Of a stretch of DNA of 64,000 bases, positions 43,613 to 51,690 are shown in pieces; the stretch's first letter is position 1; every line of letters starts with the position of its first letter. The stretch spans positions 3,764,001-3,828,000 of the forward strand of contig OX639991.1 in assembly GCA_951828585.1 (NCBI GenBank), written 5' to 3'. The translations under genes and the position numbers were made by a program. The notes below the pieces were generated by a model that saw only the letters and a list, made by a program, of their open reading frames with translations, was not told where the DNA came from and ran no database searches. Source of the stretch: Longimicrobiales bacterium (GTDB lineage Bacteria; Gemmatimonadota; Gemmatimonadetes; Longimicrobiales; Gaopeijiaceae).

Positions 43613-44440
43613 TCAGGTCCTTTCCTGTCGTCCAGCGGTCGGTGACGAGTCTCGCCACTCTCTACTAATGAGATGCCGCGAGATCGCCGATCCGTGACAT
43701 TGTCGGCTTGGACCGTCCCGACCGCCATTGGCGCGCCCGGGCCGGAATCCCCTTCTTGAAGCGGCTGCCAAGCGGCCAAGCCAAACCGAACCGATCGCGT
43801 CACGACCATCCCCCGGCGCCTTTCGGTTAACTCCCGCACACCGTTTCGTCGCCCGCGAACAAACGCATGCCGGGCTATTCCGCGGTATCATCCCGGGCAG
43901 CCGGGGGGGGGGGGGAGGTAGTTTCTCCAGGATGGCCTCGACAGCCCGCTTCCTCCGTCGTCGCACGGCGGACTCCGTGATCCCGTGGTGGTTCGCGATC
44001 TCGCGATCATCCCAGCCGTCGATCAGCGTACGGTACACCAGCTCGCGAAGGGCACCGGACAGACCTCGTGCTATCTCCAGCACCTGCTCGCGTCTCGGGT
44101 CCGGCAACCGGGCCAGCCACCACTCCCGAGAGACATCTTCGTCGGGCGATTGGTAGAGGCCGGAACCCTCCAGCGACCCGGCTGCGCGCAGCCCGGCCCT
44201 GCGGTCCCTCTTGCGTACGACCTGAAGTCCAACCGACTTGGTGATCGCCAGCAACCAGCCCAGTGGGCTATCCACGCCCACCACCTCCGCGTGCCGATCA
44301 AGAGCTACCGTCCGTGCGCGCGAAACGATGTCCTCGGGAGCGTGTACCGCATCGGCAAACAAGCCCGCCAACCGCAGCATGGCCGCGTGGTGCGCCACCA
44401 GCCAGCCAGCCAAGATCCGCTCGGTGTTCTCTTGAGCCAT
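43613..44440 (-). CDS. Sigma-70 family RNA polymerase sigma factor with poly-C tract
   Basis: The protein starts at ATG 44440. Residues ~10-80 resemble sigma region 2 and residues ~115-170 region 4, with the helix-turn-helix DREIANHHGITESAVRRRRK. A tract of 13 C then gives five prolines (EKLPPPPP). In the present frame the ORF continues about 95 codons of unconvincing sequence to a TGA at 43613. With one more C it would end after 13-14 codons (AARDDTAE), with one fewer after four, and both lengths suit an ECF-type factor. The tail is therefore probably not a domain, but its length sets whether translation reaches the next gene. Confidence 0.7.
   Translation of the reverse strand: MAQENTERILAGWLVAHHAAMLRLAGLFADAVHAPEDIVSRARTVALDRHAEVVGVDSPLGWLLAITKSVGLQVVRKRDRRAGLRAAGSLEGSGLYQSPDEDVSREWWLARLPDPRREQVLEIARGLSGALRELVYRTLIDGWDDREIANHHGITESAVRRRRKRAVEAILEKLPPPPPRLPGMIPRNSPACVCSRATKRCAGVNRKAPGDGRDAIGSVWLGRLAAASRRGFRPGRANGGRDGPSRQCHGSAISRHLISREWRDSSPTAGRQERT
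43903..43915 (-). repeat. 13-C homopolymer in the sigma-factor gene
   Basis: Thirteen uninterrupted C on the coding strand (G on the plus strand) follow the region 4 coding part. Tracts this long slip readily in replication. The three possible frames after it end 4, about 14 or about 95 codons later. Confidence 0.9.
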
Positions 44441-47524: not shown

Positions 47525-47690
47525 TGTTGATTCTCGCTCCGGTCCCTTGGTGGGACATGGTTCGGAGACCCATGGTTCGATGACTTCCGGTCCCGCCGAC
47601 CGAGGCGGTAGTATCCGGCACGACCTCTCGCGGTCGCGTCTAATCTACGCAAGCAGGGGGGTCAAGGGACAGGACTCAACGAGACCGCGT

Positions 47691-48749
47691 CCCAACACTC
47701 GCCTGGACGCGGTCTCGCGATCATCTGGCTGCCATTTCGACCTCACCCGGGTCAGCGCCGGGACAGCCGAGGTTTCAGGATGTGGAAGAACGGGACCCCG
47801 GCGTCCGACTCCTCGTAGCCGACCACGTAACCGGAACCCACGGCAAAGTCTCCGAGCACATGGTCCTGGTGATAGCGCGCGATCGTCCTGCCGGTGTCGG
47901 GATCCACGAGATCCAGCCAGCTGTCGCGCAATTCGGCGATGTCGATTGAAGAAGGCGTCAGATTCTCGTAGGACGGTAGCTGCCCCGTCCAATCCGGGTC
48001 GGCCGTGTGCCACACCAGCCAAAGTCCCCGGTCGTCCAACATGATCGAACTCACGCTGGCCAGCGCAAACGCGTCCCCGCCTTCGTCGAATTCCGGAACG
48101 CGGCGGTCGAACACCCTGCCCACCTTCGGCTCCGGCGCCAGATCCCACCGGCTGAGTCGGTTGACGAGAAAAGCCACCGCCCACACGGTGTCGTCCTTAC
48201 CCGTCACGATTGCCAACGCATCCCAAGGCCACGGCCGGGACGAATGCACCCGGCCATCGTCTCCATGGGAGGTCATCTCCCCGGAGGGCCGTAGCATGTG
48301 GAGAAGGTCACCTGCAAACACGGCCACGTCATCGTTCAAGACGCCAACCGACCGGGCCCGTCCCGGAAACCGGTCGGTGCGGACCACCTCGAAGTCGTGA
48401 TCGAGCATGGTCCGGCGTTCCTGTTGAGAGTCGAAAACGTGGATGTACCGAGGACCCACGGCGATGTGCGCGATGGATCCGTATTCCCCAGGGCCTTCCC
48501 CCTGGCGCCCGACGGTCCGCAAGTACCTGCCGGTCGAATCGAACACCGAAATCTCCGCGTCCCCGCTCACCAGAATGCGGCCGCGCCGGTCCACGGCACA
48601 CTTCGAGAACATCGAGATGATATCCAACCCGGGTCCGTCGAGCCCGCCGATCGTCACAAGGGTGTCGAGCGTGATGACGCATTCGGCGCAGGTCACGTCG
48701 CCTGAGACCTGCTCGGGTTCCTGGGGGTGAAGGGGTAGCGGGGCGGCGT
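47691..48749. repeat. 1,059-bp direct repeat, copy A
   Basis: This segment recurs at 50203-51261 at a constant offset of 2,512 bp. Every stretch compared by eye was identical, and translations in all frames agree. It covers nearly all of the beta-propeller gene except its first 43 bp, plus about 60 bp beyond the stop codon. Confidence 0.95.
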
Positions 48750-48792
48750 GAGCGACAGCGAGGGCGGTAAGGAGGAGACAGGCGGTCTTCAT
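47752..48792 (-). CDS. 6-bladed beta-propeller secreted protein, module 2
   Basis: This is a 346-aa protein with a cleavable signal (MKTACLLLTALAVAHAAP) and no clear lipobox. QGEGPGEY is the propeller signature. The mature protein begins with CAECV, a Cys pair that could be structural. Its start lies 9 bp after the stop of the phase-variable Cys-rich gene, so the two form an operon and its translation may depend on that gene's frame. A truncated duplicate lies at 50264-51246. Confidence 0.78.
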   Translation of the reverse strand: MKTACLLLTALAVAHAAPLPLHPQEPEQVSGDVTCAECVITLDTLVTIGGLDGPGLDIISMFSKCAVDRRGRILVSGDAEISVFDSTGRYLRTVGRQGEGPGEYGSIAHIAVGPRYIHVFDSQQERRTMLDHDFEVVRTDRFPGRARSVGVLNDDVAVFAGDLLHMLRPSGEMTSHGDDGRVHSSRPWPWDALAIVTGKDDTVWAVAFLVNRLSRWDLAPEPKVGRVFDRRVPEFDEGGDAFALASVSSIMLDDRGLWLVWHTADPDWTGQLPSYENLTPSSIDIAELRDSWLDLVDPDTGRTIARYHQDHVLGDFAVGSGYVVGYEESDAGVPFFHILKPRLSRR

Positions 48793-48801
48793 GGGGTTAC
48801 G

Positions 48802-49485
48802 TTACCGGTCTGACTCGGACTGGGCGGCGGTCATCGCGACCGCATCCAGCAGCTCTGGAATCACCGGTATGTCTGCCACGATCGTGTCCCCGTCGCAACC
48901 CCGGATCCGAATCGCCGAGCGCTCGGCGAGCAGGATTACCGACGGCATCTTCGCGTATGCCGCGAGAGCCGCGACCTCCTGCGCGGCCACCGCGTCGGAG
49001 ATTTCCCGCGCCAGTTCCTGTGCGCCAAACACGCCGAGGCATCTCAAGTGAGTATAAAAGCACGCGCCTTGCAGATAATTATCAGGATGCTCGGCGTGTC
49101 CCACCCGAAATGATGAGACACCCGGAGGAACTGAACCTCCCGTGATGTGCCATTCGACCCCGCCTGGGGTCACCCAATCCGTGCACCTGATGCAAGGACT
49201 ACCGGATTCACGGCCTACGCCCCACCCCGCAGCATTGATACTCCGATGACGAATCAGCGTGCCAGTCGGCCCAGCCACCAGCGAGTACGGGGCATCGTCT
49301 CCGTTGCCGGAGCGCACCACCTCCGTCAGGTGCGACGCGCCGTCGGCCTCATCGGTTGTCTGCCCGGAAAGTGCCGACATCCCGAACAGGGGGAGGGCTA
49401 CGAGCGCGACCAGGCAGGATCGGGCCCACAGGTAGGTGGACAACTCATTCAGTGGGGGGGGGGGGGGGGGGGGGAGGTTTCGCAT
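48802..49485 (-). CDS. Secreted Cys-containing protein with 21-C tract, module 2
   Basis: This is a 227-aa protein from ATG 49485, with GAGGAG about 8 nt upstream. After MRN a run of 21 C encodes most of L-P(7), then LNELSTYLWA and a hydrophobic segment (LVALVALPLFGMSALS) that acts as signal peptide. The mature part holds CIRCT, two further Cys near GACFYTHLRC, and GCDGDTIVADIP. The CxRCT and CDxxxVAxIP ends resemble the protein at 43116-43610. As sequenced the frame is open (ON). One C more or less gives a TGA within three codons after the tract. The function is unknown. Confidence 0.72.
   Translation of the reverse strand: MRNLPPPPPPPLNELSTYLWARSCLVALVALPLFGMSALSGQTTDEADGASHLTEVVRSGNGDDAPYSLVAGPTGTLIRHRSINAAGWGVGRESGSPCIRCTDWVTPGGVEWHITGGSVPPGVSSFRVGHAEHPDNYLQGACFYTHLRCLGVFGAQELAREISDAVAAQEVAALAAYAKMPSVILLAERSAIRIRGCDGDTIVADIPVIPELLDAVAMTAAQSESDR
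49454..49474 (-). repeat. 21-C homopolymer at the start of the Cys-rich gene
   Basis: Twenty-one uninterrupted C on the coding strand begin 11 nt after the A of the ATG. Only lengths of 3n keep the gene open. Other lengths terminate at TGA codons in ACTGAATGAG just behind the tract. This is the classic layout of a phase-variable gene. A sequencing or assembly error in the exact count is possible. Confidence 0.9.
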
Positions 49486-50202
49486 CAGTTTGCTCCTCGC
49501 ATCGTGGAGGTTGCTGGATTGCTACGTGTGGCACAGCGAGATCACCATCGCAGCGTTGGCGCAGGGAAGCTACGCCATCGTCTGGAGAAGCGCAATGGCA
49601 AGCATTTGTGGCTCCTGGATGTCAAACCGGAATTGAATGTCCGGGGGTAGAGCGAAATGGAAATGGAAATGTCCCGCCTTGGGTGAGGGTTTTCCACCCG
49701 CGGTCAGCTGAAGCGGGAGGGGGTGGGGTAGGAGTGGACTCCCCGATCGCGTTTGGGTTGGGTCGCACCCTGCCTTGCCCGCCCGGTGGGGCACCAGGCG
49801 CGTACCATGTGGAAGCCGCTTCCGCAGGCCGACGAGGCTCCCGCCCATCGGGGACGCTTGACACGTACAGCATCCGGCGGTTGCGCAGGCATTCCATTAC
49901 TCCGCGCAGCCTCTTCCGCGAGCCGCTGGTCCCGCCGGGCCGCGGCCATTCGGGCACTCGCGTAGATTTGCTTTCGCCAGGATGGTCCAGAGGGGGCTTC
50001 AGCGGCTTCGACCGTGGCTCTCGGGGCTCGCGGACTGAGCCTTTGTCGGTGTTGCCAGAGGACGGGCCCGGCCTGCTAGGCCGCTAGGGACTTGACCGCC
50101 AGATAGCGTTGGCCGGTCCGGGAATCTGGATGTCCCCACAAAGTCTACGTTCAATTCAACGACTGCCTCGTCACCCGGCCGAACACCAAGGGCCTTCCGC
50201 TC
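49486..50202 (+). other. Intergenic stretch of 717 bp, no gene recognised
   Basis: It lies between the start of the Cys-rich gene and the second copy of the 1,059-bp repeat. Open frames on both strands lack ribosome sites and recognisable motifs. One minus-strand frame (49704-49949) is Ala/Arg-rich and might be a remnant. The stretch should contain the promoter of the phase-variable operon, but no clear -35/-10 pair was found. Confidence 0.5.
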
Positions 50203-51261
50203 CCCAACACTCGCCTGGACGCGGTCTCGCGATCATCTGGCTGCCATTTCGACCTCACCCGGGTCAGCGCCGGGACAGCCGAGGTTTCAGGATGTGGAAG
50301 AACGGGACCCCGGCGTCCGACTCCTCGTAGCCGACCACGTAACCGGAACCCACGGCAAAGTCTCCGAGCACATGGTCCTGGTGATAGCGCGCGATCGTCC
50401 TGCCGGTGTCGGGATCCACGAGATCCAGCCAGCTGTCGCGCAATTCGGCGATGTCGATTGAAGAAGGCGTCAGATTCTCGTAGGACGGTAGCTGCCCCGT
50501 CCAATCCGGGTCGGCCGTGTGCCACACCAGCCAAAGTCCCCGGTCGTCCAACATGATCGAACTCACGCTGGCCAGCGCAAACGCGTCCCCGCCTTCGTCG
50601 AATTCCGGAACGCGGCGGTCGAACACCCTGCCCACCTTCGGCTCCGGCGCCAGATCCCACCGGCTGAGTCGGTTGACGAGAAAAGCCACCGCCCACACGG
50701 TGTCGTCCTTACCCGTCACGATTGCCAACGCATCCCAAGGCCACGGCCGGGACGAATGCACCCGGCCATCGTCTCCATGGGAGGTCATCTCCCCGGAGGG
50801 CCGTAGCATGTGGAGAAGGTCACCTGCAAACACGGCCACGTCATCGTTCAAGACGCCAACCGACCGGGCCCGTCCCGGAAACCGGTCGGTGCGGACCACC
50901 TCGAAGTCGTGATCGAGCATGGTCCGGCGTTCCTGTTGAGAGTCGAAAACGTGGATGTACCGAGGACCCACGGCGATGTGCGCGATGGATCCGTATTCCC
51001 CAGGGCCTTCCCCCTGGCGCCCGACGGTCCGCAAGTACCTGCCGGTCGAATCGAACACCGAAATCTCCGCGTCCCCGCTCACCAGAATGCGGCCGCGCCG
51101 GTCCACGGCACACTTCGAGAACATCGAGATGATATCCAACCCGGGTCCGTCGAGCCCGCCGATCGTCACAAGGGTGTCGAGCGTGATGACGCATTCGGCG
51201 CAGGTCACGTCGCCTGAGACCTGCTCGGGTTCCTGGGGGTGAAGGGGTAGCGGGGCGGCGT
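50203..51261. repeat. 1,059-bp direct repeat, copy B
   Basis: This is the second copy of 47691-48749, in the same orientation and apparently identical. Its outer end at 51261 lies in a 16-bp palindrome and abuts a decayed HNH endonuclease gene. No target-site duplication or transposase was seen. Confidence 0.95.
50264..51246 (-). pseudogene. 5'-truncated copy of the module 2 beta-propeller gene
   Basis: It has the same coding sequence as 47752-48792 from about codon 16 on, without the start codon and signal peptide. A TGA inside the palindrome at the junction closes the frame just upstream. The first usable start is an internal GTG at 51208, giving 314 residues with no signal. It is either dead or a silent donor for gene conversion with the intact copy 1.5 kb away. 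Confidence 0.8.
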
Positions 51262-51274
51262 TTCAGCTGAAACG
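51259..51274. repeat. 16-bp perfect palindrome at the repeat junction
   Basis: CGTTTCAGCTGAAACG reads the same on both strands and spans the outer boundary of repeat copy B. It could be a recombination scar, a protein-binding site or coincidence. Confidence 0.7.
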
Positions 51275-51690
51275 TGTTCGCGGCTCTGCTGCGATGCGGT
51301 GGTCGTGCCATTTCGCGGGGAGCCGACGGCTCGGTGCTCGATGTCGGGCGGCGGCGGCGGACCGTGGGTTGGCGGCTGCGCAAGGCCCTCTACGCGCGCG
51401 ACGGCGGATGCCGCTTCCCCGGATGCGGATCGCGTGTGCGCACCCACCGCACCACATCACCCACTGGGCCCGTGGCGGCGAGACTGGGGGTGCGCATGGA
51501 CGTGGCTCCCGGAGCCCCGGACATCGGCGACCTGGTTCCGGCGGACGCCTTCAGTCCCGGCCGAAGACTTCGGGCTGGCCCGCTGGCACGGCCAACGCGG
51601 CATCGGTCCTTGGACCGCAACCACGCGATGGCGGGGCGAACGCATCGACTCGGGGTGGGCGACGGCGTGCCTCTGGGGGGAAGGAGGTGG
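51262..51690 (+). pseudogene. Decayed HNH endonuclease (DUF222-type) fragment
   Basis: Pieces of a DUF222/HNH endonuclease appear in different frames: AETCSRLCCDAVVV just after the junction, then DGSVLDVGRRRRTV and LRKALYARDGGCRFPGC, then HHITHWARGGET in another frame, and TTRWRGERIDSGWA near the end. At least two frameshifts and an internal deletion separate them, and the 5' two thirds of a normal gene is missing at the junction with repeat copy B. It is non-functional. Such genes are often present in multiple copies and behave like mobile-element relics. Confidence 0.72.

Follow-up and report, generated by a model that had tools for sequence, protein, structure and literature searches.

A 21-C tract behind the start codon of a predicted secreted protein gene as a probable translational on/off switch in an uncultured Gemmatimonadota bacterium

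What does a run of 21 C do when it stands almost directly behind the start codon of a bacterial gene? The question is raised by gene A, which lies on the minus strand of the window (the whole stretch of 64,000 nucleotides of Longimicrobiales DNA analysed here). On the coding strand, the locus reads GAGGAG-CAAACTG-ATG CGA AAC CT-(C)21-ACTGAATGAGTTG and continues through a signal sequence in a 227-aa open reading frame that ends at 48802 (Table 1). The bases that flank the run on this strand are GAGGAGCAAACTGATGCGAAACCT on its 5' side and ACTGAATGAG on its 3' side. A preliminary description of this DNA had reported a ribosome site, an ATG, three codons, 21 C, and an open frame, and every detail of it that could be checked was right. 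Its statement that the frame closes when one C is lost or gained also agreed with our frame check: at 20 C, a TGA stands directly after the tract, and at 22 C, the tract is followed by ACT GAA TGA, placing a stop two codons on. Likewise, the propeller gene that it had placed 9 bp past the stop of gene A was found there (ATG at 48792, stop at 48802). The frame from the ATG is open only at tract lengths divisible by 3. A change of a single unit switches the frame, which is a placement expected of slipped-strand loci, and at 21 C, a length that comes from one assembly of one species and may be off by one or more, the tract is above the usual poly-G/C length cut-off for such loci (9 or more, PMC5953494).

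Table 1. Coordinates of the features at the gene A locus (positions in the window)
Feature	Position	Strand	Basis
Candidate promoter TTGCGC-N17-TAGCTT	49567..49595	-	Inference, by eye; orthologue has TTGCGC-N17-TAGCCT at the same place
Shine-Dalgarno-like GAGGAG, 7 nt 5' of the ATG	49493..49498	-	Sequence; same hexamer in the RHO3_bin_73 orthologue
Start codon ATG, 11 nt from ATG to tract (ATG CGA AAC CT)	49483..49485	-	Kept in the RHO3_bin_73 orthologue and paralogue L029
Poly-C tract, 21 C on the coding strand (21 G on the plus strand), codons 4-11	49454..49474	-	Sequence
Signal-peptide segment LNELSTYLWARSCLVALVALPLFGMSALSG, directly 3' of the tract	49363..49452	-	AF2 helix 13-30; kept in orthologue and paralogue
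Gene A (P0001, 227 aa), Cys-rich, predicted secreted, new family; frame open at 21 C; TAA at 48802	48802..49485	-	
Gap from gene A stop to propeller ATG, 9 nt; propeller without a Shine-Dalgarno of its own	48793..48801	-	
Gene B (P0002, 346 aa), DUF5128 six-bladed beta-propeller, putative co-switched partner	47752..48792	-	PF17170, E 6.2e-10
Second propeller copy without start and signal peptide, 99.8% identical to 47685-48749	50197..51261	-	

We consider it probable that the tract acts as a slipped-strand translational on/off switch. Translation would begin at the ATG, 11 nt ahead of the tract, and continue across the C run into the signal peptide. In a minority of cells, polymerase slippage would change the run by one or two C. 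Multiples of 3 (18, 21, 24) would give the secreted protein (on), and any other length would bring translation to a stop within three codons past the run (off). Expression of the propeller gene, 9 nt further on, would probably fall together with that of gene A, through lost coupling or polarity. We infer that tract length would vary within one population and that the benefit would come from heterogeneity of the secreted product. Export of the product is predicted from the hydrophobic N-terminal helix that AF2 places 3' of the tract, and the signal peptides of its homologues are evident by inspection. A consensus promoter scan of the gene A locus called nothing at a spacing of 16-18 nt, the candidate promoter of Table 1 included.

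P0001 has no match in Pfam or NCBIfam, neither to NVEALA nor to another named secreted-peptide family. A profile search of the 23 genus genomes gave 30 family matches, spread over 11 genomes; this genome accounts for nine of the matches. The family is marked by a CxxC, a His/Cys-rich middle, and a C-terminal segment like AIQVxGCDGxTIVGHVPV. All invariant residues are kept in P0001; therefore, the 21-C (on) state encodes a complete family member. The AF2 model of P0001 is confident in the C-terminal domain 155-225 only, and comparison of the structure with the PDB returned no match reaching E 0.001; for these two reasons, we make no functional call. When genome contigs were searched, P0001 found nothing and P0002 found five Gemmatimonadota MAGs. 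These are the named genomes closest to this one, in line with the phylum guessed in the preliminary description.

The downstream gene product, P0002, scores 39.2 bits against PF17170, for which the curated cut-off is 22.9, and thus belongs to the DUF5128 family. Among the close homologues of gene A that were examined, a DUF5128 propeller likewise stands directly 3' of the gene. The 9-nt gap and the lack of a Shine-Dalgarno of its own make it plausible, as far as the layout goes, that the propeller is co-switched with gene A. The 4.5-Mb genome holds 125 PF17170 matches (e.g., L067-L096), a very large paralogous family. Positions 47685-48749 and 50197-51261 form a 1065-bp direct repeat with 99.8% identity, and recombination between the two copies would remove gene A, its switch, and one propeller. 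The second propeller copy is adjoined by a degenerate frame with an HNH-like CRFPGC motif (51274-51500, plus strand). Other, diverged direct duplications in the window are 1019-1768/4249-4998 (72% identity) and 57821-59028/59092-60314 (80%).

In related sequences, a tract was found at the same site with other lengths. In a second species of the genus (MAG RHO3_bin_73, G019), the syntenic orthologue has the same Shine-Dalgarno, ATG, and LNEL signal around 10 C; it is out of frame, with a stop two codons past the tract. Gene A and this orthologue also have the candidate promoter in common (TTGCGC-N17-TAGCTT and TAGCCT, respectively). A distant paralogue in the same genome (C1:2170338, L029) reads ATG-CGA-TT-C8 and is off by one, and its remaining 206 aa are open and keep every invariant family residue. 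All three tract-bearing members have the poly-C just after the start, followed by LN(E/K)L(A/S)T and the signal helix. A motif of poly-C plus LN(E/K)L matched at these three loci only in the 23 genus genomes (reversed control, 0). The length differences (21, 10, and 8) are between species or paralogues, with one genome per species. With regard to the slipped-strand switch put forward in the preliminary description, the layout fits, as do the same-site tracts of the congener and the paralogue, both out of frame; gene A is accordingly a putative phase-variable gene. Homologues that start 3' of the tract, which the preliminary description had named as evidence against a switch, were also looked for, and the tract-bearing homologues do not start there.

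The main rival to a switch is that the tract grew neutrally in a dispensable gene. In this small subfamily, an ancestral poly-C, short at first, would have lengthened by slippage while the gene was under weak constraint, and the length changes would be loss-of-function steps on the way to a pseudogene, with no maintained switch. We regard this rival as real but unlikely. It draws on the state of the locus elsewhere: the RHO3_bin_73 orthologue is a pseudogene, with an internal deletion and a frame change besides, its propeller is frameshifted, and the G021 copy of gene A is without its N-terminus, so that, from these sequences, the locus looks decayed outside this genome. In the relatives L097-L099, the propeller is present and gene A is missing. 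Most family members have no tract: none was seen at the N-terminus of the other matches, several of which are partial or decayed copies. The ordinary signal peptides of the members without a tract, by contrast, speak for the switch. Against neutral growth, gene A of this genome and its diverged paralogue are intact except for the tract, and the tract, the start codon, and LN(E/K)L are held in place in proteins that are only about 29% identical.

The long runs in the rest of the genome bear on both sides of this question. The genome is a single 4.47-Mb contig in which C/G runs were counted by pattern search. It has 279 runs of at least 8, with about 229 of exactly 8, 34 of 9, 5 of 10, and 2 of 11 (close estimates, among the matches listed), and ten runs of 12-22 (12, 12, 13, 13, 13, 14, 14, 15, 21, and 22). 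The longest, 22 C (L014 4999-5020; G000:C1:3177698-3177719), stands behind the stop of a PpiD-like gene and outside any evident gene, which means that long runs can arise without an evident switch and that not every long run is one. Because of this run and the pseudogene state of the orthologue, neutral growth stays a real rival. On the other hand, propeller loci have more than their share of long runs: 4 of the 10 are near DUF5128 matches, compared with 6.3% of the genome (binomial P = 0.0024, post hoc), and a comparison with the 8-C runs gave a Fisher P of 0.026, also post hoc.

Three of these runs, at genes for exported proteins, speak in favor of a switch. A C14 (L015 5015-5028) follows the lipobox of a lipoprotein gene and leaves the remaining 414 aa out of frame, and a G14 (L011 4976-4989) in a Gly-rich motif of a propeller splits the gene; both are candidates for further off-state loci, or else for assembly errors. 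A G15 (L012 5085-5120; G000:C1:1840095-1840109) separates TTGACA from TAGACT ahead of a gene for a secreted Cys-rich protein, after which a propeller follows. The spacer measures 20 here, and 12 G would give 17. By its sequence, this run looks like a promoter-spacer phase switch; a promoter scan at L012 made no call within 16-18 nt spacing. One C13 is found just 5' of the ATG of a propeller lipoprotein, and a G13 is upstream of another small Cys-rich secreted gene, after which a propeller-like frame follows. A second C13, at 43903-43915 of the window, is near the 3' end of an ECF-like sigma factor gene, and its length sets the end of the protein, either 8 codons on or after running on for 95. 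The two runs of 12 are a G12 at the start of a porin-like gene and a C12 inside a gene of unknown function. Given these further candidate runs and the enrichment at propeller loci, we tentatively propose that gene A may be part of a genome-wide phasome of a presumably marine, probably sponge-associated Gemmatimonadota bacterium (the association is suggested by the RHO MAG names). Such a phasome would act on secreted propellers (125 matches) and their Cys-rich partners by way of several tract types: poly-C in a coding frame, runs that split a lipoprotein and a propeller, and poly-G in a promoter spacer.

A second alternative would move the start of translation to the 3' side of the tract, to the TTG at codon 16, leaving the C run in a 5' leader where it would tune expression, e.g., through structure or initiation, with no frame switch. 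Poly-C/G can influence transcription or initiation, and a start at the TTG would yield a usable signal peptide. However, the Leu codon behind LN(E/K) is TTG in gene A, CTA (no start codon) in the orthologue, and CTG in the paralogue, and it is the Shine-Dalgarno and the ATG 5' of the tract that are conserved. This codon pattern fits an internal codon that is read from the upstream ATG, so that translation through the tract is supported, as judged from these few changes. We consider a downstream start, which is disfavored by the CTA of the orthologue, to be very improbable.

Least probable of all is an origin of the tract, or of its length of 21 C, in an error of sequencing or assembly. Every sequencing platform makes mistakes in counting long homopolymers, and in the drafts of the genus, irregular poly-C/G runs are numerous where contigs end, but the tract of gene A is deep inside a single 4.47-Mb contig that holds only ten runs of 12 or more, and an independent MAG carries poly-C at the same base, within a contig. 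The out-of-frame states of the paralogue and of the other split genes could, however, stem from homopolymer errors within a single assembly, which counts against the switch. The many contigs that terminate in long irregular poly-C/G in the drafts (L032-L060) are probably Illumina poly-G artefacts, which would inflate a homopolymer census of MAGs. We did not use counts of long C runs in the genus and phylum drafts as evidence, because many of the runs are at contig ends or beside N stretches and resemble such artefacts. In the single-contig genomes G001 and G026, there were no runs of 18 or more.

Two simpler origins of the tract were rejected. From 8 to 10, the number of runs in this genome declines to ~0.15 per added base, and at that rate, fewer than one run of at least 12 would be expected and next to none of at least 20; the length of the tract is far beyond this distribution, which rules out chance. 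CCC makes up 33% of the Pro codons in neighbouring genes, and six consecutive CCC would arise through codon choice with a probability of about 0.001; therefore, a need for proline does not account for the tract.

Known slipped-strand systems offer close parallels to the gene A locus. In Neisseria, pilC has an in-frame poly-G/C of 9-20, and tracts in pilC and other Neisseria genes reach G20-21 (PMC5953494). Like pilC, gene A, with a product predicted to be exported, has a long poly-C in its reading frame, the length of the tract sets the frame, and related non-variable copies are without the tract. Unlike pilC, for which switching is proven, gene A encodes an unrelated protein and belongs to an uncultured non-pathogen that is represented by one genome with a single tract length. 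In Listeria, the surface-protein gene inlA has a 5' poly(A) homopolymer (PMC2831843). The two genes are alike in that the homopolymer is at the 5' end and the out-of-frame state gives a very short truncated product; they differ in that the poly-A of inlA is of ordinary length, whereas here there are 21 C and a two-gene unit. The Neisseria fetA and porA tracts are in promoter spacers and are comparable solely to the G15 between TTGACA and TAGACT at L012, the gene A locus being of the coding-frame type. In Bacteroidetes, small secreted proteins of the NVEALA type stand beside a six-bladed propeller. Gene A resembles them in that a small, predicted exported Cys-containing protein is paired with a propeller of the DUF5128/DUF4934 type; because P0001 matches no Pfam or NCBIfam model, membership in that group is unsupported.

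In agreement with the preliminary description, which was aware of none, no described case of phase variation in Gemmatimonadota was found in a literature search of limited depth, and neither phase variation nor homopolymers come up in a 2023 paper on the ecogenomics of Palauibacterales, an order of Gemmatimonadota. The mechanism is a known one, and what is apparently new is the lineage and phylum, the gene family, and the propeller partner. To our knowledge, nearly all documented cases of slipped-strand phase variation come from pathogens and host commensals. Bacteria of the ocean and the soil are pointed out as a gap for phase variation in a 2025 review (PMC11868660). The locus described here is a clear candidate in an uncultured, presumably marine Gemmatimonadota bacterium, with an off-state orthologue and paralogue and with more candidates in the same genome, and it makes the question testable in long-read metagenomes. 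Possible random switching would thereby be tied to propellers, a very large family whose function is unknown.
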